NCBI RefSeq assembly: GCF_013408175.1
Contig: NZ_JACBYW010000009.1
Location: 1 to 64,000 of the forward strand
DNA length: 64,000 nt
Direction of reading: 5' to 3'
Source of the DNA: Actinopolyspora biskrensis
Lineage (GTDB): Bacteria; Actinomycetota; Actinomycetes; Mycobacteriales; Pseudonocardiaceae
The notes beneath the pieces were generated by a model, which worked only from the letters and a program-made list of their open reading frames with translations, was not told where the DNA came from and did not search any database. A program made the position numbers and the translations under genes. This document shows positions 8,941 through 32,976 of this stretch, one piece after another. How positions within the stretch are numbered: the stretch's first letter is position 1; the number at the start of each line of letters is the position of its first letter.

Positions 8941-10137
8941 TCACCCCTTGACGCAGACGATCTGACGCAGCCGGGCCCGCACCTCCACGAGCGCGGACTG
9001 CGCCTCGATGACCGCGTCGATGTCCTTGTACGCACCCGGTATCTCGTCGAGCACCCCGGTGTCCTTGCGGCACTCGACACCCCGGGTCTGGCTGCGCAGG
9101 TCCTGCGAACCGAAGGTCTTCCTGGCCCTGTTCCTGCTCATCCTGCGGCCGGCCCCGTGAGCGGCCGAGAAGAAGGACTCCTCCGAACCGAGCCCGCGCA
9201 CCACGTAGGAACCGGTCCCCATGGACCCCGGCACGAGCCCCGGGTCCCCGCTTCCCGCGCGGATGGCCCCCTTCCTGGTGACCAGCATCGTCCGACCGTC
9301 GATCGTCTCCTCGGAGACGTAGTTGTGGTGGCAGGAGATCGGCTCCTCGAAACCGATCCTCCTGCCCCGGAAGGAGTCGCGCAGCGTGTTCTTCACCAGT
9401 CCCAGCATGATCCAGCGGTTCAGCCTCGCGTACTCCTGCGCCCAGAAGAGGTCGTGCTGGTAGGCGGCCATCTGGGGAGTTCCGGAGATGAACACGCCCA
9501 GGTCGCGGTCGGGCAGGTCGCGGTTGTGCGGAAGCTCCCGCGCCCTGGCCATGTGCCGCTCGGCCAGTTCCTTGCCGATGTTGCGCGACCCGCTGTGCAG
9601 CATGATCCAGACGGCGTCCTCGTCGTCCAGGCAGAGCTCGATGAAGTGGTTGCCACCGCCGAGCGTGCCGAGCTGGCACCCCGCCTTGGTCCTGCGGTCG
9701 TGCACTCCGGCGTACAGCTCGTCGAAGTCCTCCCAGAGCTGCCGCCACCTCCCGGTGGGCACTTCCACGCGGGCCGGGTCCACGGGCTCCTCGTGCGCGT
9801 TGAACCCGACCGGAACGGCCCGCTCGACGCGGCTGCGGATCCCGCGCAGGTCACCCGGCAGGTCCGCGGAACGCAGCGTGGTCCGCACCCCGGCCATTCC
9901 GCAGCCGATGTCCACCCCGACCGCGGCGGGCGAGACCGCGTGGGGCATGGCGATGACGGAACCGACGGTGGCGCCCTTGCCCAGGTGGACATCGGGCATG
10001 ACCCGCACCCCGTGCACCCAGGGCAGCGCGGAGATGTTGCGCAGCTGCTCCAGCGCGGCCGGTTCGATCTCGTCCTCCGGGGCCCACATGAGCGTGGAAG
10101 CCTCCGCACCGGACAGGGCGACCGGATAGTGTGCCAC
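8941..10137 (-). CDS. rtcB: RtcB-type RNA ligase
   Basis: RtcB joins 2',3'-cyclic phosphate and 5'-hydroxyl RNA ends using GTP and Mn2+, in tRNA splicing or RNA repair. The 398-residue product has all family blocks: PDVHLGKGATVGSVIAMP (residues 48-65), VDIGCGM with the metal-binding Asp and Cys79, GGGNHFIEL, HSGSRNIGK, SCHHNY, RKGAIRAG and the C-terminal AAHGAGR that holds the His guanylylated during catalysis. The GTG start follows GAGGAGTCAGTC, and the longer open frame upstream is non-coding. No archease, RtcA or toxin RNase is adjacent, so the RNA substrate is not indicated by context. It is probably a bacterial RNA-repair type. Confidence 0.93.
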   Translation of the reverse strand: MAHYPVALSGAEASTLMWAPEDEIEPAALEQLRNISALPWVHGVRVMPDVHLGKGATVGSVIAMPHAVSPAAVGVDIGCGMAGVRTTLRSADLPGDLRGIRSRVERAVPVGFNAHEEPVDPARVEVPTGRWRQLWEDFDELYAGVHDRRTKAGCQLGTLGGGNHFIELCLDDEDAVWIMLHSGSRNIGKELAERHMARARELPHNRDLPDRDLGVFISGTPQMAAYQHDLFWAQEYARLNRWIMLGLVKNTLRDSFRGRRIGFEEPISCHHNYVSEETIDGRTMLVTRKGAIRAGSGDPGLVPGSMGTGSYVVRGLGSEESFFSAAHGAGRRMSRNRARKTFGSQDLRSQTRGVECRKDTGVLDEIPGAYKDIDAVIEAQSALVEVRARLRQIVCVKG

Positions 10138-10400
10138 GACTGACTCCTCGAGAACGCTGTCCGAAAAAATCCCGCGGACGAAACGGATTCCCGCGGCGAG
10201 AACGGCGAAAACGCTCACCCGTCCGCCGGAACACCCCTGCGCGGGCAATGTCCCGGAGCCGTTCCGGATCCGGAAAACCCGGAGGAATGTGGAGGCGACC
10301 GTACTGCCGTGGCGCTCGACCCGTCGAACGATTTCTCCGCCGCGGCGCGGGCCCGCGAATTCGCGGGCACTTCCAGGACCGCACCGCTGCCGGCGACGAC
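10138..10400. other. Upstream region of rtcB, no gene seen
   Basis: This is the left part of the 493-base space between rtcB and the gamma-glutamyltransferase gene. No convincing open frame was found; short AT-richer tracts (CGAAAAAATCCC near 10160, GGATCCGGAAAACCCGG near 10265) could belong to the rtcB promoter. The rest of the space is occupied by a dispersed repeat. Confidence 0.4.
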
Positions 10401-10610
10401 TCACTGATGTTTTCCTGTCGTAGTGATGGCTGGTGTGGTGCTTCGGCGCCCGCGGCGCCGAAGCACCACATTGCCCACCGGCGCCGCCGCGGGGTCTCCC
10501 GTGGTGCTCTCGCCAGGACGACCCCGACGTTGCGTAGCCGCTACCCGATGTCGGGGATCCCGCGGCGAGAGCCCGCGAGAGGTTCCGCCACGGAAGCACC
10601 CAAGCAAGCC
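10401..10610 (-). repeat. Dispersed intergenic repeat R1 (near full length)
   Basis: This is a near full-length copy of a repeat family found throughout the window. Read on the minus strand, it starts about 20 bases after the TAG of the gamma-glutamyltransferase gene. The order of modules is GCTTGGGTG, GGCGGAACCTCTCGCGGG, CCCCGACATCGGGTAGCGG, a second GTCGGGG block, then a perfect 16-bp inverted repeat (arms 10435-10450 and 10454-10469, arm GTGGTGCTTCGGCGCC, 3-base loop), and the tail ACGACAGGAAAACATCAG. The hairpin could act as a terminator or RNA-stability element, although no T-run follows. Confidence 0.75.
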
Positions 10611-21726: not shown

Positions 21727-22653
21727 TCAGCGGTACGGAGACCACCGCACGGTGAAGTCGCGCTCCCGCATGGAACGCAGTCTCCTGTGGAGCTCACCCG
21801 CGACCGACGGGTTGCTGCGCAGGTTCGGCAGGACGCTCACCGTGATCTTGAGCTCACGCAGATCGCGCAGCACCGGGAACCCCTCCCAGGCGACGACGTC
21901 GAAGCCGTACGCGGCCACCAGCTGCCGGTAGGCCTCGGGAGAGCGCCCGAGCCGCAGGTAGCCCACAGCCATGGGGGTGAGGTCCCACTCCGGCGGACCG
22001 GCGCACAGCGAGTCGAAATCGCACAGCACCGGCCCCTGCGGCCCCATGATGACGTTTCCCAGGTGAGCGTCCCCGTGCGCGATGCTGCGGGGCAGGGCGA
22101 ACTCCAGCTCGTCGAGACGCTGTTCGACCGCGTCGCAATGCCGCTTCAGGAAATCCCGGTCCACGCGGTCGAGCTCGTGCTCCCCCTCCGCGAGACGCCT
22201 CCTGGCGTCCGCGACCGGACGCCACTCCCCGACCGAGGGGGGAATCCCCGAGGAGTGCAGCGATCGAAGCAGCCCGCCCAGGTCGTAGCCGGTCGGTTCG
22301 GCACCGGAGTCGGGGATCTCCTCCCAGAGCGTCGCCACGTGTTCGCCCGCCCGAACGGGCTGCCGCACGCCGGGGAGCAACCGAACGGAGGGCACCCCCT
22401 GCTCGGCGAGCCAGCGCGCGGCCTCGACCACGTTGTCGGCCCGGTAGGCCAACGAGGACGTGAGCACGATGCGCACGACCACAGGTGCCGTGCGCAGCAG
22501 AAACACCCCGTTGTTGACGAAGCGCAGCAGTCGCGCCCCACTGGGGTCCAACCCCGCGGCGGCGCAGACCTCGGCCAGCGCGGATTCCAGTTCCTGCGGG
22601 ATGTCGGACTCCCGTGCGGAATTCGGCGAAAAAGTCATGTTTGCCGATGTCAT
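21727..22653 (-). CDS. Aminoglycoside phosphotransferase-family kinase
   Basis: The 308-residue protein has the APH/choline-kinase fold. It shows a nucleotide-binding N-lobe (ARLLRFVNNGVFLL, PVVVRIVLTSS), the Brenner motif IAHGDAHLGNVIMG with the catalytic Asp, and the metal-binding LCDFDSLCAGPPEWDL. Members phosphorylate small molecules (antibiotics, choline, homoserine and others), and many actinobacterial copies lie next to XRE regulators without conferring resistance. It lies 60 bases downstream of the XRE/TPR regulator on the same strand and is probably co-transcribed. The ATG at 22653 follows GGAAGAC; a second ATG lies five codons in. Substrate unknown. Confidence 0.87.
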   Translation of the reverse strand: MTSANMTFSPNSARESDIPQELESALAEVCAAAGLDPSGARLLRFVNNGVFLLRTAPVVVRIVLTSSLAYRADNVVEAARWLAEQGVPSVRLLPGVRQPVRAGEHVATLWEEIPDSGAEPTGYDLGGLLRSLHSSGIPPSVGEWRPVADARRRLAEGEHELDRVDRDFLKRHCDAVEQRLDELEFALPRSIAHGDAHLGNVIMGPQGPVLCDFDSLCAGPPEWDLTPMAVGYLRLGRSPEAYRQLVAAYGFDVVAWEGFPVLRDLRELKITVSVLPNLRSNPSVAGELHRRLRSMRERDFTVRWSPYR

Positions 22654-22713
22654 GCTATGTCTTCCGGGGTAAGCGCGCCGCCGACGCCCACGGGGCACTC
22701 CCGCACGAGCCGA

Positions 22714-24096
22714 TCAAATCGAACGACTCTCCCTGAACTTGCGGACCTGCTCGGAGAAGTCGCGGGCGTCCGAGTTCGTGGTGTGCTTGGCCGCTTCCAG
22801 CTGCAGCGGTCGCAGCCGGTCCGGCACCCGGGCCGACTTGACCTGGGCCCCGATTTCGAGGGCCTGCCTGCCGACCTTGATCCCCTCCTGGACGTCACCG
22901 GCCCTTATGTGGTTCGTGGCCTGCATGCCCAGCCCGAAAACATGGCTGCGCTGCATGTCCACGTCATAGGACTCGTTGCACTTGATCGTCTCGGCGACGG
23001 CCATCGGCGCGTAGCGCTCCGGATCGAACTCGGCCAGCGCATCGTGCACCGAGCCCGTTACCGCGTGCAGGTCGTTCTCGTCGAAGAACCGGACCCAGTC
23101 CGGAGCCTCGTTCAGCCTGGCCCGCGCGAACTCGTCCCTGGTCCTGCCCAGCATCTTCGAGACCTGGTCCGGGAGGTTGAGCATCCCGTACGCCCAACCC
23201 TCGTTGGCGCACATGACCGCGACCGTGAGCGAGGAACCGGAGTCCTGGGCCGCTATCTGTCCGAGCTGGAACAGCTTCAAGGCCTCGTTGGGCTGGTGAT
23301 AGTGCAGGTAGACCCGCCCCATCCTGTACAGCACGTTCGCGACCAGGCTGTCGTCGTTGGCCTGTTTGGCGAACTGGAGCGCCTGGCCGAAATGACTTCG
23401 GGCCGGGTCCATCAGCCCCATGTCGAACGACGTCCATCCCGCCAGGCTGTGCATGTCGGCGAGCGAAGTGAACAACCGTTGTTGAACCTGGTCCGTGCAA
23501 CTGGCGTGCAGCAGCTGTTTCGCCCAGTGCAACTGGGCGACGACGGCGTCACGGCAAGTCCCCCCACCGTAACGATAGTCCAGGTCACGCAACGCTTTGG
23601 TCGCCGCCTGAATCTGCTGAACGTCGGCCATGCCGATACGCGACGGCGCAGGGGTCTGGGCACTGGCAGCGGCCCAGCCACTCTCCTCCGCGCCGAAGAC
23701 GGAAGCCCCCATAGCAACCGCCGCGGCATGGGACAGAAACTTCCGACGCTTCACCGTCTCGTCCTCCTCAGCCGGGGAGTCGCCGCTGTCCGAATCGGCG
23801 ACTCTCACTGCCGTCGCCCCGTCATAGGCGAGGCCCATATACCCCCTCGGGACGCCGAGACCATCCGCGATTCGGGCCAGCACGTCGTATGCGATGACCT
23901 GCCTGCCCTTGAGGATCTCCGAAACCTCGGATTGCGACTGTCCGGTGGCGGCCGCGATCTGGCGCTGCGAAACACCGTGCTTGCGCAGCAACTTGTAGAT
24001 GTCGCTGATGTTCCGGCTGGCCAGAGCTTCCCGCATCTCCCGTCCGTCCCAGACCTCTGGTGCGACGAGAGAACCGCTCGAACCGATGGTGTTCAT
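22714..24096 (-). CDS. XRE/TPR transcriptional regulator
   Basis: The 460-residue regulator has an N-terminal helix-turn-helix at about residues 30-85 (LRKHGVSQRQIAAATGQSQS, then EVSEILKGR), a Tat-like KRRKFLSHAAAVAMGASVFG segment in the middle (residues about 115-135) and a C-terminal array of helical TPR-type repeats (ANVLYRMGRVYLHYHQPNEA, AVMCANEGWAYGMLN). This matches the large actinomycete XRE/TPR regulators that control development or secondary metabolism. The hydrophobic KRRKFL stretch lies between domains and is probably a linker or hydrophobic core element, not an export signal. AGAGGGG precedes the ATG. It shares a 220-base promoter region with two divergent small genes. Confidence 0.88.
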   Translation of the reverse strand: MNTIGSSGSLVAPEVWDGREMREALASRNISDIYKLLRKHGVSQRQIAAATGQSQSEVSEILKGRQVIAYDVLARIADGLGVPRGYMGLAYDGATAVRVADSDSGDSPAEEDETVKRRKFLSHAAAVAMGASVFGAEESGWAAASAQTPAPSRIGMADVQQIQAATKALRDLDYRYGGGTCRDAVVAQLHWAKQLLHASCTDQVQQRLFTSLADMHSLAGWTSFDMGLMDPARSHFGQALQFAKQANDDSLVANVLYRMGRVYLHYHQPNEALKLFQLGQIAAQDSGSSLTVAVMCANEGWAYGMLNLPDQVSKMLGRTRDEFARARLNEAPDWVRFFDENDLHAVTGSVHDALAEFDPERYAPMAVAETIKCNESYDVDMQRSHVFGLGMQATNHIRAGDVQEGIKVGRQALEIGAQVKSARVPDRLRPLQLEAAKHTTNSDARDFSEQVRKFRESRSI

Positions 24097-24317: not shown

Positions 24318-24593
24318 GTGGTTTCCTTCGAACACTCCGAATCCGAGGATTCGGCGGACTCCGCCCCCCGATCGGAAAACCGCCGGGACGATTCCGGAGA
24401 GGTCGTCGGACGGAACCACGGACAGGTGCGATGCCTCGACGTGAACCACACGCCGAGGGCCCTCGAGGTGCTCGTCAACCGGGACAGGGTGGTTCTCGCC
24501 GGACCGCCCGGTGCAACCGCGGCGCTGTCGGCCGAAAGGGTCGGCCAGTTGAGTTCCGCGCTGCGGTTCGCCGCTGATCAGGCGAGAAAGTGA
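24318..24593 (+). CDS. Small hypothetical protein (91 aa)
   Basis: This 91-residue protein has a disordered acidic/Ser-rich N-terminus (residues 1-35), then a compact region (VLVNRDRVVLAGPPGATAAL) and a C-terminal helix SAERVGQLSSALRFAADQ. The layout resembles the small protein encoded at 317-523, which also ends in a helix of the same kind (WTVEQARQLRDVLDEAL). It starts at a GTG, divergent from the XRE/TPR regulator, with the Cys-containing gene 12 bases downstream. The family is not recognised; a role with the regulator is inferred from position. Confidence 0.6.
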   Translation: MVSFEHSESEDSADSAPRSENRRDDSGEVVGRNHGQVRCLDVNHTPRALEVLVNRDRVVLAGPPGATAALSAERVGQLSSALRFAADQARK

Positions 24594-24605
24594 CGGTGAC
24601 GTACG

Positions 24606-24944
24606 GTGGACGCGATTCTGGGACAGGTTCTGCGCAACGCGGTCTGGGAGCGGCTCGATGTGCTTTCCGAGCTGACCAACCGCGCGGATGCGTCGTCCCT
24701 GCTGTCCGTGGCGCGTTCCGAGCTCCCGCGGCTGACCGCGGGATGGCGGACGCTGCTGACCGCACACGAACCGGACGAACGAGGCAACTGCCCCGAGTGC
24801 TCGAGCTGGCTGCGCCCGCGCAAGGCACCCTGCGCGGTGTGGCGCTCCGCCTACGAGCACCTCGTCGCCGGCGGCCTCGCCCCCCGTCCCGCACGGCACC
24901 TGCGACCGGCGCGGGAACTGCGCCGAGCAGCGCCGGTGCCGTAA
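24606..24944 (+). CDS. Small Cys-motif protein (112 aa)
   Basis: This 112-residue protein is helical through residue 55. It then carries CPECSSWLRPRKAPC (two C-x2-C / C spaced Cys), a likely zinc-binding knuckle, and ends in an Arg/Ala-rich tail. It begins at GTG 24606, 12 bases after the previous stop, so the two are one unit. Proteins of this shape commonly flank XRE regulators in actinomycetes, but their biochemical role is unknown. The tail is long and basic. Confidence 0.65.
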   Translation: MDAILGQVLRNAVWERLDVLSELTNRADASSLLSVARSELPRLTAGWRTLLTAHEPDERGNCPECSSWLRPRKAPCAVWRSAYEHLVAGGLAPRPARHLRPARELRRAAPVP

Positions 24945-25560: not shown

Positions 25561-28500
25561 TCACTTGCGGCGCAACCGAGCTCTGGAACGCAGCTCCCCG
25601 TCCAACCGCGTCCCCTCCGAACACGTTCCGCGCAGCGGTAGTTCGGTGTACTGGGCGGGCACCATCATCAACGGTTGACGCCTGCCGAGCAGTGTGGAGT
25701 ACGCGGGAACGAACCCCTGGTCGAGCAGCGAAACGGCGAAGTCGACGGCGATGTAGCCCCGAGCGTCCAGCACGCCCGTGCCCTGCCAGGGCAGCAACCC
25801 GGAGCCGCCGAGATAGGTGAACCCGCAGCGTCCCCGGGTCACGGCGCTGACCGTCAACCGGACCCGGGGGCTGAACAGCTCCTCGTATCCCAGTTCCTCG
25901 TCCACCCGCATGGTGGACAGGTAGCGGATCGCGTTGTGCCAGGCCCTGCGCAACACGGCCACGCGCGCCTGGCGCACCTCGGGCGAGATGTGCGTGTCGC
26001 TCAGGTTGTACACGTCCGCGTAGACCGTCCGGGCCCAGTCGAGCCGGTCCACACCGGCCGGAACCGGCACCGGCACGGAGTAGACCATCGACATGACCAT
26101 CTCCCGGAACAGGTGCAGCGAACGCCCCGTCACCCCCTCCGCCCCGTTCCACTTCTCCGCGCGCTCCTGCACCTGGTCGAGCGTTCGGAGCGGGTTGTCG
26201 GTGATGTCGAAATCCGCCACGACCCGTTCCAGGCAACCGCGGAAGGAGTGGAACATGTCCGGCCGGCGGGACACGACCTTCGGCCCCAGCCGTTCCGCGG
26301 CCACGGTGTCGATCTCCCTGATCGACACGTACCCGTCGACGCCGGCCATGCTCGCGTACTCGTGGAGCTTGCGGGTGTAGGCGCGGGTCATCGAGGACGG
26401 GCGCGGACGGAAGTGCCTGCCGTCGGTGAGCACGTTGATGCGCAGCCCCGGCGGGTACACGCGCCGCACGGCCTGCTGCAGCTCGCGCAGGCGGACGAGC
26501 CCCCCGAACTCGGCGATGTCCGGCAGCGGGCCGTAGGCCTTCAACCGGTTCAGGGACTGCTTGACGGGAAAGCCGAGCAGCACCACCTCGATCGGTTCGC
26601 CCCGTGCCACGCAGCCGCCCACGTCGCGCTGCATGTCGGCCACGACGTAGTTGGAGCGGGATCCCTTGAGGAACTGCTTGCGGGTGAACACGTGGTGCAG
26701 GGCACCGACGACCGCTCCCACGCGCTCCCGGTCGTCCCGCCGGCGTCCGGCCTGGCCGCTGCCGGGGAACTTGGCCAGAGCTCCACAGGCCGTTCTCTCG
26801 GCGGCCCTGTCCGCGTCGTCGATGACGTTGGCCACGATGGACTCGGTCTCGGACCCGCTGAGCCGCACCGCCCAGCGCTGGGCAGAGCGGTTCTCGCGCA
26901 GAGCCGCCACGTGCAGCTCCTCCAGCGAGTGCGTGTTGGACAGCACCGGGCTGCGGCGCCCCAGCCGCTTCCGCGGGGAGGTTTCGAAGCTGTCGATCAC
27001 CGAGGCCGCTCCGGCACCGGTGGGCGGTTCCGCGGTTCCGCCGGCGGAACCGCCCTCGCGCTGGCGGGGCATCACCTCCCCGGCGGAGAGCGAGACGACG
27101 AAGGTTCCGTGCGCGTCGACGGGCGTGCCGAGGTCCCGGGCCATCTTGTCGTCGAACACCGCGACGACCTCCGCCTGGCCGAGTTCACGCAGGCGCCGCA
27201 CCGTCCACTCGGCGACCGACTCGGTGCTCTCCTCCGGAACGTGGATCAGGTCCGCCTCCGGCACCCCGGTCTCGTCCAGCGCCTTTCGCACGTACTCGCC
27301 GTCCCGGTCGCCGGAGAAGCAGAAGACCACCCGTCCCCCCGCGTCCCGGACGTCCCACACGAAGCGGGGAAGACCGCTGTGCACCGCCCCGGCCCAGAGC
27401 GGGGTCCCGGTGCTCCACTGGGGCGCTCCCCTCTCGGCCGTGCACCCCTTGGCGGGCTCCCCCGCCCGGGTGCGGGCCGACGTCCCCCTGCCCGCCCCCC
27501 TGGGACGGTCCTCCGGTTCCGCGGAGGGGTGGCTTCCTCGGCACAGCGGGACGGACGGGTCCCGTGCTTCCGGATCACCGAGGCGCTGGGGCGGTCTTCC
27601 CCCGGAAGTGACGAGGCCGCACGAATCGAGGTCGACCACCACCATCGGTTGCGGAACCCGTCGGTCCCAACGGCGCAGCCTGGTGCGCTCCTGCACGGTG
27701 TGCAGCACTCGCCGCAGCAGCGCGTCCTGTTCGGCCGGGACCGTGTGCACGAACCCCCGCAACGGGTGCTGCCCGGAGAGCACGTCGGCGCTGTCGGCTT
27801 CCAGGTCCCGCAGCTCGGCCGCGATCACGTGTTGCACGGCCGAGCGGGTCCGCCGCGAACGGGCGCCGCGCTCGCCGAACTCGAAGCTCTCGAACCCCCC
27901 GGCCAGCGTGTCCAGCGTGCGCGCCAGCGCACGCACCCCTTCGCGCACCTCGGTCGAGGTGACCCTGCTCGCGTCGCACACCCCGGCGGCGGAGGTGATC
28001 ACCACCCTGCCGGTCGCCTGCAGCTCCGGGGACAGTTCCACGGCCAGGGCACCCACGCGCGGGGTCAGCAGCAGGGCCCGGGAGTTCTCCAGCACCAGCC
28101 GGAAAGCGCGCAGCGGAGGGCGGATGAAGTACTCCAGGAAGTAGTGCAGCGCGGTCTCGTCGCGTTCGAAACGGTTGGCCACGACCTCGCCGAGCAGGGT
28201 GCGGGGCAGCGCGGAGCAGGGGCCGAGCAGCGCGGGGACGGTGACCGGGATCGTCCCGCCGGGGAACTCGGGGTGTGCCGGCGAGGGGGCGCCCGGCACC
28301 GCGGTGTGCTCCGGTCTCGAGCCGGAAGTGGCGCAGTGCATCCGCAGCATAGGATCGCTGTCGACCATTTCGACCAGGTTCCACCAGTCGTCGTCGGGAC
28401 GACGTCGCCGCTCCGGCGGGGCGTACGGGTCCAGCGCTCCGGTGAGCAGCGCCAGCCAGTCGGGGTCGCGGCGCTTGCGGGTGCTGCGCAGCCGGATCAG

Positions 28501-28722
28501 CACCCGGTAGAGCCGTGTCCAGGTGGGAGCCGTGCCCAGCGGGATTCCGCTGCCCGCGCGTTCCCCCACCAACCAGGCCAGGTGGTCGCGCCACACCACG
28601 CGCAACCCGTAATCGCCACCGGCCAGTATGGAGTTCGCTTCTTCCGCTTCGAGTGGCCACGTCCCGAACGGCCGTACGGTAGCCGTGCTCTTCTCGGGGC
28701 CAAGCCGGGGCCGACCGTCCAA
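25561..28722 (-). CDS. HAD-like / isocyanide synthase (PvcA/Dit1) fusion protein
   Basis: From a TTG at 28722 with AAGGAG seven bases upstream, the protein has 1053 residues. Residues about 630-1030 match the PvcA/Dit1 isocyanide-synthase family: LLGFPVKQSLNRLKAYGP with LPDIAE (about 716-738), YPPGLRINVLTDGRHF (756-771), and a C-terminal RLTVSAVTRGRCGF and LLPWQGTG block typical of the family's second half. Residues 359-550 look HAD-like: VVVDLDSCG with Asp364/Asp366, VFCFSGDRD with Ser470, and AVFDDKMAR with Asp524/Asp525. Residues 1-355 are conserved-looking but unrecognised (WWNLVEMVDSDPMLRMHC, ALHYFLEYFIRPPLRAFRL). Known isocyanide synthases convert Tyr or Trp to vinyl isonitriles with ribulose-5-phosphate; the HAD domain could act on a sugar phosphate. 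No partner dioxygenase is adjacent. Confidence 0.72.
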   Translation of the reverse strand: MDGRPRLGPEKSTATVRPFGTWPLEAEEANSILAGGDYGLRVVWRDHLAWLVGERAGSGIPLGTAPTWTRLYRVLIRLRSTRKRRDPDWLALLTGALDPYAPPERRRRPDDDWWNLVEMVDSDPMLRMHCATSGSRPEHTAVPGAPSPAHPEFPGGTIPVTVPALLGPCSALPRTLLGEVVANRFERDETALHYFLEYFIRPPLRAFRLVLENSRALLLTPRVGALAVELSPELQATGRVVITSAAGVCDASRVTSTEVREGVRALARTLDTLAGGFESFEFGERGARSRRTRSAVQHVIAAELRDLEADSADVLSGQHPLRGFVHTVPAEQDALLRRVLHTVQERTRLRRWDRRVPQPMVVVDLDSCGLVTSGGRPPQRLGDPEARDPSVPLCRGSHPSAEPEDRPRGAGRGTSARTRAGEPAKGCTAERGAPQWSTGTPLWAGAVHSGLPRFVWDVRDAGGRVVFCFSGDRDGEYVRKALDETGVPEADLIHVPEESTESVAEWTVRRLRELGQAEVVAVFDDKMARDLGTPVDAHGTFVVSLSAGEVMPRQREGGSAGGTAEPPTGAGAASVIDSFETSPRKRLGRRSPVLSNTHSLEELHVAALRENRSAQRWAVRLSGSETESIVANVIDDADRAAERTACGALAKFPGSGQAGRRRDDRERVGAVVGALHHVFTRKQFLKGSRSNYVVADMQRDVGGCVARGEPIEVVLLGFPVKQSLNRLKAYGPLPDIAEFGGLVRLRELQQAVRRVYPPGLRINVLTDGRHFRPRPSSMTRAYTRKLHEYASMAGVDGYVSIREIDTVAAERLGPKVVSRRPDMFHSFRGCLERVVADFDITDNPLRTLDQVQERAEKWNGAEGVTGRSLHLFREMVMSMVYSVPVPVPAGVDRLDWARTVYADVYNLSDTHISPEVRQARVAVLRRAWHNAIRYLSTMRVDEELGYEELFSPRVRLTVSAVTRGRCGFTYLGGSGLLPWQGTGVLDARGYIAVDFAVSLLDQGFVPAYSTLLGRRQPLMMVPAQYTELPLRGTCSEGTRLDGELRSRARLRRK

Positions 28723-28960
28723 CGGGTATCTCCTTGTTCTTCCTCCGACAGAGCGCGGAGACTCACGAGCTCCGCGAATGAACCGCCCGGCGCGGGGATC
28801 CCCGGGCGAGGAAGCGCGTTCACGAACCGCTCGTGCGGGTGTCGTGCCGATGAGTACATCGCTCTCGTCCCGGTCGCACGGACACACGCCGGTCCGAGGG
28901 GGGACGTGCCGGGAATTCGAACAGCGATGTCCACGGCCGGACCGAATTTTTCTGTTCAGG

Positions 28961-29171
28961 TTGGCTCAGCTGCCCGCTCGGCGGAACCTCCCGCTCTCCC
29001 GTGAGTGGACGCACCGGCGTCGAGCGGCCCTCCACACCACGTCGAGCCGTCCTCGCGGGAGCACAACGGGGGAGGTCCCGCGGCGGTACGAGTCGCTCGG
29101 GTGGTCGTTTCGGCGCTGCCACGCCGAAAACACCACACCGGTCGCCAGCACGACAGGAAAGCATCAGTGAG
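28961..29171 (+). repeat. Dispersed intergenic repeat R5 (near full length)
   Basis: The plus strand shows, in order, GGCGGAACCTCCCGCTCTC, a diverged GTCGAGCGGCC and GTCGAGCCGTCCTCGCG, GTCGCTCGGGTGGTCG, the hairpin region TTTCGGCG with CGCCGAAAACACCACACC, and the tail ACGACAGGAAAGCATCAGTG. Tail and hairpin match R1 closely. Unlike most copies it does not follow a same-strand stop codon. Confidence 0.7.
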
Positions 29172-29574: not shown

Positions 29575-30222
29575 TTGCCCACCGAAGTAGCCCCGTTGCG
29601 CCGCAAACCAGTCCAACAGCGCAGCGCCCAACGCGTGGAACGGATGCTGGAGGCCTGCGCCCAGCTCATCGACGAGGTGGGATACGACGGCCTGACCACC
29701 ACGTTGATCGCCGAGAGGGCCGGCGTGGCCGTCGGCTCGCTGTACCAGTTCTTTCCGGACAAGCGCGCGGTGGTGCAGGAGCTCACCCTGCGCAACCTGG
29801 AGAGGTTCGTCCAGACCGTCTCCGAACGACTGGACCGGATGGAACTCGCTCACTGGTGGGACGCCGTGGACACCGTCTTCGACGTGTACCTGGGCATGCA
29901 CCGGGAGATCCCCGCGTTCAGCAAGCTCCACTTCGGGGATGTCGTGGACCTGCGGCTGCTGCACGAGAACAAGGACAACAACGCGGTGATCGCGGAGAAG
30001 CTCACCAGCCTCATCTCGGAGCGGTTCGGAATGAGCCCCACCGAGCTGGAGCTGCCCCTCTCGGTCGCGGTCGAAGCAGCCGACGCGGTACTGCACCTGG
30101 CTTTCCGGCGGGCCCCCATGGGGGATCCGACGCTGGTGAACGAGGCGCGGGAACTGGTCCGCGGGTACCTGTCGAGTCGCATCTCGGAGGATCAGCCGAA
30201 GGACTTGCCGGCTCCCCGATAG
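29575..30222 (+). CDS. TetR-family regulator
   Basis: This 215-residue TetR-type repressor has its DNA-binding helix-turn-helix at about residues 38-68 (GLTTTLIAERAGVAVGSLYQ, then FFPDKRAVV). The ligand domain is not diagnostic. The start is a TTG with AAGGAG six bases upstream. Its 3' end overlaps the convergent aldolase/racemase gene by 31 bases, so the two transcripts are complementary at their ends. Target and ligand are unknown. Confidence 0.93.
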   Translation: MPTEVAPLRRKPVQQRSAQRVERMLEACAQLIDEVGYDGLTTTLIAERAGVAVGSLYQFFPDKRAVVQELTLRNLERFVQTVSERLDRMELAHWWDAVDTVFDVYLGMHREIPAFSKLHFGDVVDLRLLHENKDNNAVIAEKLTSLISERFGMSPTELELPLSVAVEAADAVLHLAFRRAPMGDPTLVNEARELVRGYLSSRISEDQPKDLPAPR

Positions 30223-31490
30223 GTCCGCGCGGATCCGACCCTCCGACAGCGAGTCGAATCGTGCCACTCGATCAGGTGATATTCGTCGAATCTCTCGGCG
30301 AGTTCCCCTGCTTTGGCGTGCCGGAACCACACCCGATCACCGGGACGAAGCGCACCGGCTCCCCTGCCCACCACCGGGGTCTGCACCTCTCCCACTGCCT
30401 CGGTCCCGGTCAGGCGCAGCCCACTCGGCAGATACGGGCTGGGCAGCCGGTCCCGGCCCGCCGCGCCCGAAGCCGGATACCCTCCGCCGAACAGGGTCGC
30501 GCACCGTCTTCCGGGGCGGCGAACCACCGGCAGGGCGAACAGCACGGAGGGAAACGGCCTGAAGTCGTGGTACGCGTCGAACAGGGTGGGACCGATCAGC
30601 CCCGACCCCGCCGTCACTTCGGTGACGGCCCGCTCCGCCGCGGTGGTTTCCAGGCTTCCGGTGCCTCCCCCGTTGACGAACTCCAACTCGGCCACCCCGC
30701 CGACCGCCTCGACCACAGCAGCACGACGACGGGCGAGTTCCGCGGCCGAACGTCGCTGCACCCAGCGCACGGCAGCCGCCCGCAGCGGCTGCCCCGGCGG
30801 GGCGTCCCCCACCCCGGCGATCTGTCCTTCGTAGACGAGCAGGCCGACCAGCCGAAAGGCCTTCCGCCGCGACACCTCGTGCGCCAGTTCGCGGGCCTGG
30901 CCCGGAGAGCGCACCGGGGAACGCATCGGCCCGATGTGGACACCGGCGGCCGCTCCACGCCCCAGGTACGGGATCCGGCGCAGCGCGGAGTCCTCCAGGG
31001 GCCGCCAGGCGGCGTCGATCTCCAGGCACACCCGGATCCGCGCCGCGGAACGGCCACCGACCCGTTCGGCCAGGTCCAGCTGTTCGGCGGAGTCGACGGT
31101 GATGGTCACGGCCGAGGCTGCCCCCGGATCGGAGGCCAGTTCGGCCAGTGATCGGCGGTCCACCGTCGGGTAGGCGACGAGCAGGTCGTCGCCCACCCCG
31201 GTCCGGTACAGCCACAGCGCCTCCGCGAGGCTGTAGCACATCAGCCCGGAGAACCCGGGGCTTCTCGTGGCCCGACTGATCAGTTCGGGGCAGCGCAGGG
31301 ACTTGGTGGCCACCCGTATCGGCTTGCCCCTGGCACGAGCCACGAGCCCGGACGCGTTGCGGTCGAAGGCGTCCAGGTCGGCCACTCCGAAGGGCGGGTC
31401 GAGCTCGGACGTGGCTGCGTCCAGCCGGGCCGCCGAAACGGCCGCGGATGGTGCTGCGGAGGAGTTCACGCCATCAAGGTAAGCCCGCAC
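30192..31490 (-). CDS. PLP-dependent amino-acid aldolase/racemase (D-threonine aldolase-like)
   Basis: The 432-residue protein has the fold-type III arrangement of D-threonine aldolase and alanine racemase N-domains. ADLDAFDRNASGLVARA precedes the PLP lysine Lys63 in RVATKSLRC, followed by GLMCYSLAEALWL, AVTITVDSAEQLDLAER, GLLVYEGQIAG and the C-terminal strand domain with metal-site-like HAKAGE and DEYH. It resembles the amino-acid deaminase/aldolase group of actinomycetes, which act on D-hydroxy-amino acids in the cytosol. The start is uncertain: GTG at 31490 or GTG at 31469, neither with a strong ribosome site. It is divergent from the lactone oxidase and overlaps the TetR gene tail to tail. 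Confidence 0.85.
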   Translation of the reverse strand: MRAYLDGVNSSAAPSAAVSAARLDAATSELDPPFGVADLDAFDRNASGLVARARGKPIRVATKSLRCPELISRATRSPGFSGLMCYSLAEALWLYRTGVGDDLLVAYPTVDRRSLAELASDPGAASAVTITVDSAEQLDLAERVGGRSAARIRVCLEIDAAWRPLEDSALRRIPYLGRGAAAGVHIGPMRSPVRSPGQARELAHEVSRRKAFRLVGLLVYEGQIAGVGDAPPGQPLRAAAVRWVQRRSAAELARRRAAVVEAVGGVAELEFVNGGGTGSLETTAAERAVTEVTAGSGLIGPTLFDAYHDFRPFPSVLFALPVVRRPGRRCATLFGGGYPASGAAGRDRLPSPYLPSGLRLTGTEAVGEVQTPVVGRGAGALRPGDRVWFRHAKAGELAERFDEYHLIEWHDSTRCRRVGSARTYRGAGKSFG

Positions 31491-31647
31491 CTCTTGTTAC
31501 GCGAGTTGCTTTCACATATTTTCCGCCAATCGGCGTCGCCGAACCGACCGGAGTCCCCCGAGCATCTACGGCAAGGCGCCGACTCACGTGACGGCTACCC
31601 GACCAACCGCGCAAAGTGCTGTTACGAGTTCCAAGGACGGTCTGGCC

Positions 31648-32976
31648 ATGACACTCGACAAGTGGTCCAACTGGGCGGCGACGAGCACCGCCGCCGGTCA
31701 GCGCACGAAGCGACCGCGCGATCCACGCGAAATCGCCCGTACCATCACCGACGCCCGGGCGGAGGGCCGCAGCGTGCGACCACTCGGGTCGGGCCACTCG
31801 TTCAGCGACATCGCCACCCCGCGACCACCGCGCCACCGCGCCGGCGCGGTGGCGCTGGACCTTTCGGACTGGACGGGAATCACCGATGTGGACCGCGGCA
31901 GCGGACTCGTCACCGCACGAGGCGGCACACCGCTGCACCAGCTCAACGCCGAGCTGGACGAACTGGGGCTGGCCCTGCCGAACCTGGGTGACATCGACAG
32001 GCAGACGATCGCCGGGGCCGTCTCCACCGGAACCCACGGAACCGGCGCACGACTGGGCGGACTGGCCACACTGGTGCGGGCGCTGGAACTCGTCCGCGCC
32101 GACGGCTCGATCCTGCGCTGCTCACCCGAGGAGAACCCCGAGGTGTTCGACGCTGCCAGGGTCGGCCTCGGAGCGCTCGGGGTGATCAGCACCGTGACCC
32201 TGCGCTGCGTCCCGGCGTTCGCGCTCGCGGCCGAGGAGCACCCCCTCCCGCTCGACGAGGTCCTGCGGGACTTCGACCGGCACGCCGACGACAACGACCA
32301 CTTCGAGTTCTACTGGTTCCCCCACACCGCGCGCACCCTGGTCAAACGCAACAACAGACTGCCGGACGGGGAACCCACCCGGCCGCTGCACCCCTTGCGT
32401 TCCTGGCTCGAGTACCGGGTGCTGGAGAACGAGCTGTTCGGCGCGGTCTGCCGGCTGGGCCGTCGCCGCCCCGGCCTGGTACCGGGGCTGAACCGCCTCT
32501 GCGCGACGAGCTGGTCCGGGCGCTCGTACAGCGACAGGGCCCACCGGGTGTTCGTCACGGGACGAGACGTCCGCTTCCTCGAGAGCGAGTACGCCGTCCC
32601 GCGCGAGAGCCTTCCCGCGGTGCTGACCGAGCTGCGCGCGGCCGTGCGACGACTCGAACACCCGGTGATGTTCCCGGTGGAGGTGCGCGTGGCCGCCGCC
32701 GACGACATCTGGCTTTCCACCGCCCACGACCGTCCGACCGCCTACGTCGCGGTCCACCAGTTCAGGGGGATGCCCAACCGCGAATGGTTCGACACCTTCG
32801 AGCGGATCGCCCGCGCGGCGGGTGGAAGACCGCACTGGGGGAAGATGCACGGCCTGTCCGCCGCACAACTGCGCGACAACTACCCGCGCTTCGACGACTT
32901 CCTGCGGGTCCGCGAACGACTCGACCCGGATCGGGTGTTCGGCAACCCCCACCTGGAGCGGGTGCTGGGCGAGTGA
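31648..32976 (+). CDS. Sugar-1,4-lactone oxidase (FAD)
   Basis: The 442-residue flavoprotein belongs to the D-arabinono/L-gulono-1,4-lactone oxidase family. Its VAO-type FAD domain has GSGHSFSDIA (about residues 50-60) and GDIDRQTIAGAVSTGTHG, and its C-terminal ALO domain ends with HWGKMHGLSA and RVFGNPHLERVLG. It oxidises aldonolactones or related polyols with O2, giving ascorbate-like products or sugar acids. The ATG at 31648 fits the family N-terminus (WSNWAATSTA); an upstream GTG at 31588 is possible. It is divergent from the aldolase gene across 157 bases. Confidence 0.9.
   Translation: MTLDKWSNWAATSTAAGQRTKRPRDPREIARTITDARAEGRSVRPLGSGHSFSDIATPRPPRHRAGAVALDLSDWTGITDVDRGSGLVTARGGTPLHQLNAELDELGLALPNLGDIDRQTIAGAVSTGTHGTGARLGGLATLVRALELVRADGSILRCSPEENPEVFDAARVGLGALGVISTVTLRCVPAFALAAEEHPLPLDEVLRDFDRHADDNDHFEFYWFPHTARTLVKRNNRLPDGEPTRPLHPLRSWLEYRVLENELFGAVCRLGRRRPGLVPGLNRLCATSWSGRSYSDRAHRVFVTGRDVRFLESEYAVPRESLPAVLTELRAAVRRLEHPVMFPVEVRVAAADDIWLSTAHDRPTAYVAVHQFRGMPNREWFDTFERIARAAGGRPHWGKMHGLSAAQLRDNYPRFDDFLRVRERLDPDRVFGNPHLERVLGE

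Follow-up and report, generated by a model that had tools for sequence, protein, structure and literature searches.

Isocyanide synthases (ICSs) join the nitrogen of tryptophan or tyrosine to a carbon of ribulose-5-phosphate, according to the accessible part of one account of their chemistry (PMC7949033). Lim et al. 2018 described, in the portion available, two common bacterial ICS architectures, the single domain and the ICS-dioxygenase fusion, and three in eukaryotes (PMC5974471). The accessible part of a 2023 fungal survey (a preprint) lists the same three eukaryotic architectures and states that the isocyanide synthases characterised to date are few and that present genome-mining software overlooks the clusters (PMC10153163). 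Yeast Dit1 is reported, in the accessible part of another paper, not to act as an isocyanide synthase, its product being most likely formyl tyrosine (PMC7345447). Members of the PF05141 superfamily therefore need not form isonitriles, if that partly available account holds. Here we describe a gene from Actinopolyspora biskrensis, found in a stretch of 64,000 nucleotides (contig NZ_JACBYW010000009.1, positions 1 to 64,000; hereafter the window), that encodes a 1053-residue fusion of an N-terminal domain, a HAD-derived region and a domain with the PvcA/Dit1 fold. An earlier note, made from the sequence of this DNA, had called the domain order undescribed, and the order is indeed not among the architectures given in the accessible parts of PMC5974471 and PMC10153163, which make no mention of a HAD domain or of the N-terminal domain as an ICS partner. 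The literature searched, with most subscription journals outside its coverage, held no other description of a HAD-ICS or N-HAD-ICS protein.

The PvcA-fold domain belongs to a divergent family

The gene occupies positions 25561..28722 on the minus strand, with 1053 codons and a stop, open throughout, from a TTG start at 28722. The sequence AAGGAG-ATACCCG lies directly 5' of the start, with the ribosome-binding site AAGGAG at 28730..28735 (minus strand), and is identical in the six Actinopolyspora sequences for which upstream DNA was available. Full-length relatives were found in all 10 Actinopolyspora genomes, the host genome counted, and five relatives matched over most of the gene length at 47-72% identity (two from Actinopolyspora, one from Halopolyspora, two from Saccharopolyspora). 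The domain order, which the earlier note had proposed to look for in other genomes, thus recurs in all three genera. The ratio dN/dS (Nei-Gojobori) was at most 0.61 for every domain over 10 computed pairs, eight of them within Actinopolyspora, with genomes shared between pairs, and two from relatives with an intact HAD domain. The gene is real and under purifying selection. Its frame, strand, coordinates and length had been given correctly in the earlier note. The motifs quoted there (such as LPDIAE, DLDSCG, FCFSGDRD and FDDKMA) are present in the protein, and the flanking gaps of 616 and 852 bases agree with the list of open reading frames (ORFs). The plus strand also has a long ORF here (25675-29004), which overlaps the gene and is probably a shadow of this GC-rich gene. 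A plasmid search with the protein returned one weak match, covering 11% of it.

The C-terminal domain (residues 594-1053; 25561..26943, minus strand) was recognised by Pfam, by profile comparison, by structure matching and by kept residues. PF05141 (DIT1_PvcA) matched residues 703-846 with 63.1 bits against a gathering cut-off of 26.4 (E 3.8e-17). It was the only Pfam family found in the protein at E<=1 and was matched by all 13 aligned relatives (E limit 5). In hhalign, the comparison with eight canonical PvcA proteins, taken from the same bacterial family as the host, gave a probability of 98.9% (E 1.7e-17, columns 98-392 of profile A2), and the alignment took in the C-terminal RLS and PWH strands. 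A structure model of residues 594-1053, built from seven sequences, gave eight Foldseek matches at E<=0.001, all to PvcA (3e59) or PIsnA (9dhm, 9dh4), with E from 7e-7 to 5e-6 and a probability of 1.00. Unrelated matches reached a probability of at most 0.16 among the 50 matches listed. The presence of a PvcA/Dit1-type domain behind a HAD-derived one, as first proposed, is thus borne out, also by the structure prediction that had been named as a way to refute it, although the TM-scores of these eight best matches are low.

We then compared the residues that define the canonical enzymes. Among the eight canonical PvcA proteins 69 positions are invariant, and 63 of these could be aligned with the relatives (n=26). 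Thirteen of the 63 were kept in 26/26 relatives and five more in 25/26. The kept core consists of K721, K728, G731, P734, D735, P758, D767, Y782, R820, W928, R955, P978 and W979. A loss of conserved PvcA residues throughout the homologues, which would have spoken against the original proposal, was therefore found for many positions but not for these thirteen, among them two Lys, two Asp, a Tyr, two Arg and two Trp. The domain adopts the PvcA fold and has a charged and aromatic core in common with PvcA. It scored 32.1 bits against the NCBIfam model TyIsonSynPvcA, far under the cut-off of 600. In a tree of 38 rows, the 30 members of the window protein's group were separated from the eight canonical PvcA proteins by a long branch with 100/100 support. 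This split, together with the lost invariants, places the window protein in the PF05141 superfamily but outside the canonical isocyanide synthases. Within Actinopolyspora, dN/dS of the PvcA-like domain was 0.10-0.14 in seven of the eight pairs and 0.21 in the eighth, and in 8/8 pairs it was below that of the HAD region. The PvcA-like domain is the part of the protein under the strongest selection.

The accessory domains

The HAD-derived region (residues 359-575; 26998..27648, minus strand) was compared across the group. Of 30 proteins considered, four have no HAD region (L039, L041, L042 and L043) and one is cut by a contig end (L054). In the remaining 25, with the window protein and second copies counted and motif states partly read by eye, the four catalytic HAD motifs (D-x-D / T / K / D-D) were complete in 13. 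One motif was changed in three (L038, L051 and L053), and several were lost in nine (six Actinopolyspora rows, L046, L047 and L048). In the window protein the Thr of motif II is replaced by Phe, with a Ser next to it, and the Lys of motif III by Thr, while D-x-D and D-D are kept; low-complexity sequence stands in place of the cap. The complete motif set of a catalytic HAD phosphatase (D-x-D, T/S, K, D-D) is accordingly not present in it. The Thr and Lys positions are lost in 10/10 Actinopolyspora rows. The nucleophile Asp was kept in all 16 aligned HAD regions and is Gln in L047 and L048, which lie outside that alignment. In the tree L047 and L048 stand apart from Actinopolyspora, and the position of L046 is poorly supported. 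The HAD-like domain named in the earlier note therefore holds for the group, but a working phosphatase does not hold for the window protein.

Family assignment followed the same pattern. Alignment A5 holds 13 HAD regions from outside Actinopolyspora, L038, L051 and L053 among them, and PF03767 matched 11 of its 13 rows at E<=0.1 (best 2.1e-5), all below the Pfam cut-off among the scores shown. The window's own HAD stretch matched no Pfam family at E<=0.1. Against solved structures the A5 profile gave weak matches to acid phosphatases (E 0.02-0.026), ranked below an entry described as a ubiquitin-like modifier. Over the eight Actinopolyspora pairs, dN/dS was 0.22-0.61 for the HAD region plus linker against 0.10-0.21 for the PvcA-like domain; in the two pairs of relatives with an intact HAD the corresponding values were 0.26 against 0.28 and 0.19 against 0.15. 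This suggested that the HAD domain was an active partner in the ancestor and is now decaying in Actinopolyspora.

The N-terminal domain (residues 1-356; 27655..28722, minus strand) possibly and weakly resembles NIS synthetases and kinases, by fold only. Its model had a pLDDT of 78, and the top 11 Foldseek matches were all chains of NIS siderophore synthetases (DesD 1, IucC 5, AcsD 5), followed in the ranking by protein kinases. The NIS matches had E from 0.016 to 0.43, none below 0.001, with probabilities of 0.51-0.98 and TM-scores by query of 0.26-0.34. This signal is notable because unrelated matches in the C-terminal run did not exceed a probability of 0.16. In the sequence alignment the domain runs collinear to the second half of the NIS enzymes. 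The NIS profile had the highest raw hhalign score (25.6, against at most 23.1 for 17 controls), and a reverse HMMER search found one N-domain of 32 at E 0.00045, with the next at 0.056. Homology by sequence was nevertheless not supported in two tests. The hhalign P was 0.034, but one of the 17 control profiles reached 0.024, and in hmmsearch over 401 sequences 18 non-NIS rows stood above the first NIS row. The stretch first described as a 355-residue unknown domain thus possibly has a weak fold resemblance to NIS siderophore synthetases, as judged from the model, and the sequence tests lend this no support.

Distribution and neighbourhood of the gene

We searched 120 sampled genomes of the host's taxonomic family. 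PF05141 was present in 50 of them. A divergent PF05141 protein was present in 34, the class being assigned by weak score and frame length; three of the 34 (G108, G079, G056) were judged by position and frame only and several others by frame plus an N-domain match. Short fragments in G114, G076 and G089 and intermediate proteins of G076 (412 aa) and G043 (418 aa) were left out of this count. The 427-aa PF05141 protein of G053 (L040, plus strand, about 9270-10560) was rejected as a member of the class, fitting neither the canonical nor the divergent profile well (A2 E 6e-9, A3 E 2e-12), and perhaps represents another subgroup. The N-terminal domain was found in 27 of the 120 genomes, each of which also has a divergent PF05141 protein, and was absent from the sampled genomes without one. 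Among 394 genomes of the class, with five candidates scored per genome, it matched in the host genome only, so that its absence from the others is tentative.

The architecture varied within the group. A second, shorter paralogue (805-889 aa) with HAD motifs intact was observed at four loci, just past a pair of genes for an NsdA-like regulator and an APH-fold protein (L005 17575-20184; L036 5646-8165; L037 12197-14614; L038 14912-17581). The four proteins without a HAD region are short forms (458-615 aa) that have the PvcA-like domain and no N-terminal domain either (L039 6987-8462; L041 9097-10623; L042 9275-11122; L043 8758-10134), and three of the four lie directly after the NsdA-like/APH pair. 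One relative, in G032 (L055 9933-11744 and downstream), is open in two frames, reflecting a frame shift in the genome or in the assembly.

The search was expanded to the order and the class; as five to eight candidates were scored per genome, negatives from it are tentative. The PvcA-domain profile matched 11 of 200 genomes of the order, five of them Actinopolyspora. Strong matches outside the host's family were found in G155 and G147, and weak ones in G132, G178, G183 and, inside the family, G043. In 296 genomes of the class it matched the host genome and, weakly, four others. In the G147 protein a HAD-like stretch, with all motifs by eye, precedes a PvcA-like domain, and there is no N-terminal domain in that frame; its gene is probably split over two contigs and was read as two pieces. 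In G155, which belongs to another family of the order, MFS_1, AMP-binding, thioesterase and ATP-grasp genes come after the fusion gene on its own strand. This locus (L093, 9776-18429) comprises a ROK regulator and, on the other strand, the fusion gene, an MFS transporter, an adenylation domain, a thioesterase and an ATP-grasp/L-amino-acid-ligase-like gene, and is possibly a small undescribed cluster. The two other genomes of the family of G155 had no match.

We next analyzed the neighbourhood at 26 loci, two of them from the same Halopolyspora genome, using gene maps from a GC-bias gene caller rather than from annotation. The gene usually lies near an NsdA-family HTH-TPR regulator (22714..24096, minus strand; 324 bits against a cut-off of 75) and an APH-fold phosphotransferase, a kinase (21727..22698, minus strand), each in 22/26 loci. 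A divergent TetR regulator (29575..30222, plus strand) was found in 18/26. As APH-like genes occur in 111 of the 120 genomes of the family, far more than have the fusion gene, the NsdA-like/APH pair was rejected as specific partners and is best treated as landmarks. Facing the gene are two small conserved ORFs at 24318-24944 (plus strand) of 91 and 112 aa, present in 11 and 16 of the 26 loci; the 112-aa protein (24606..24944) has a CPxC motif and matches no Pfam family at E<=0.1. On the far side, at 30192-32976, lies a divergent pair, an alanine-racemase-fold protein and a gene of the FAD-linked sugar-lactone oxidase family, each in 14/26 loci. Also in the window, 9-17 kb off, are a PknB-type kinase that passes its NCBIfam cut-off and FtsW/RodA-, PBP2- and PP2C-like genes that fall short of theirs. 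In one-contig genomes the divergent copy was within 100 kb of a record end in seven of 11 (G051, G105, G083, G021, G060, G022, G107) and farther away in four (G065, G032, G086, G006), and in many of the species the gene is probably located close to oriC. For the most part it keeps to a single conserved chromosomal neighbourhood and is not part of any obvious pathway. That no biosynthetic gene is adjacent, as had been claimed, is true of the window neighbours scanned but not of the G155 relative, which stands beside genes of the nonribosomal peptide synthetase (NRPS) type.

Discussion

We favor, at about even confidence, the reading that the window protein is a divergent enzyme of the isocyanide-synthase superfamily on a separate branch, with an ancestral phosphatase partner decaying in Actinopolyspora. 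By analogy with the isonitrile-synthase chemistry described in the accessible part of PMC7949033, the C-terminal domain would join an amine to a sugar phosphate, ribulose-5-phosphate being the one used by PvcA-type enzymes. The product would be an isonitrile, or an N-formyl compound as proposed for yeast Dit1. In the relatives the HAD domain would remove phosphate from the sugar-phosphate substrate or from the leaving fragment; in Actinopolyspora this step would be dispensable and the HAD domain would serve as a linker. The N-terminal domain may have a reduced NIS-synthetase or kinase fold and act as a substrate holder or scaffold. More tentatively, the group may constitute a third bacterial ICS architecture, a self-contained NIS-like/phosphatase/isocyanide-synthase enzyme encoded by a core gene at a conserved chromosomal site, which would produce a small molecule of isonitrile or N-formyl type (a metallophore or an envelope component) without a classical cluster.

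Several observations weigh against the superfamily-enzyme reading. The Pfam match spans positions 3-147 of the 273 in the profile, about half. The model of the C-terminal domain has moderate confidence (pLDDT 66), and its Foldseek matches have TM-scores of 0.32-0.38 by query and 0.45-0.53 by target, with an rmsd of 10-14 A. Fifty of the 63 canonical invariants compared are lost in one or more relatives: the H of RLSIHP and the F of GITRF survive in 0/26, and the R of GITRF is kept in 7/26 and lost in 19; for the H of PWH the count is 11/26, with Q in 15, the window protein included. Pfam names only PF05141 in the G147 protein and no HAD family. No dioxygenase, NRPS or transporter was found among the window neighbours scanned, which are part of the window's ORFs, and the NRPS-like context occurs in one genome only (G155, 74% completeness, with ORFs that shift frame).

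The loss of so many canonical invariants suggests that the chemistry may have changed. The PvcA-fold domain could have been re-purposed for a reaction yielding neither isonitrile nor formyl product, such as another amine-sugar phosphate condensation in core metabolism. The long branch with its fully supported split and a gene position that is usually conserved and not in a pathway cluster are also consistent with this, but the kept core contains the FPxK Lys, the second Lys, the P-D, the D of DG and the PW positions, and one relative (G155) adjoins an adenylation domain and a transporter; we regard re-purposing as possible though doubtful. A non-enzymatic relative, regulatory or scaffolding, with all three domains degenerate, appears improbable. 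The HAD motifs are lost in Actinopolyspora, in L047/L048 apart from it on the tree and in the poorly placed L046, the N-terminal domain is short and not recognisable by sequence, and an NsdA-family regulator adjoins the gene. However, the PvcA-domain core is invariant in every relative, its dN/dS is low within the genus, and the four short forms retain this domain without the other two. It is more unlikely still that the HAD domain remains functional in Actinopolyspora through altered residues. The Asp nucleophile of all 16 aligned regions (Gln in L047/L048), the D-x-D and D-D of the window copy and the Ser after its lost Thr would fit such activity, but the Thr and Lys losses throughout the genus, the raised dN/dS and the lack of any family match to the window's HAD region at E<=0.1 argue against it.

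Compared with known systems, the window protein shares its fold and the 13-position core with the PvcA/IsnA isocyanide synthases (PF05141; PDB 3e59, 9dh4, 9dhm). Unlike them, it has two extra N-terminal domains and many changed invariants, and it usually lies in a conserved neighbourhood rather than in a cluster with a dioxygenase, NRPS or transporter partner, none of which was seen among the neighbours scanned. Yeast Dit1 belongs to the same Pfam family by name and is likened here by description, not by sequence; it is a protein of a fungal spore-wall pathway. The HAD subfamily IIIB acid phosphatases (PF03767) have motifs in common with the group and weakly match the relatives, while in the window protein the catalytic Lys and Thr are missing and the scores shown for relatives stay below the Pfam cut-off. 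For the N-terminal domain, the 11 top-ranking structures are chains of the NIS siderophore synthetases DesD, IucC and AcsD, with the weak E and TM values given above; the domain is shorter than solved NIS chains (539-580 aa), and the sequence tests do not support a link. The ICS-DOX (ICS-dioxygenase) fusions and the fungal ICS-NRPS fusions, as described in the accessible part of PMC5974471, likewise carry PF05141 fused to other domains. Their partners are dioxygenase or NRPS domains, and the window protein, in which neither PF02668 nor PF00501 was found at E<=1, has a HAD domain and the N-terminal domain instead. The group adds HAD-ICS and N-HAD-ICS to the known ICS architectures. It also offers natural variants of the accessory domains (HAD intact, HAD decayed, no HAD, no N-domain), which would allow a direct test of what a phosphatase partner contributes to chemistry on ribulose-5-phosphate.

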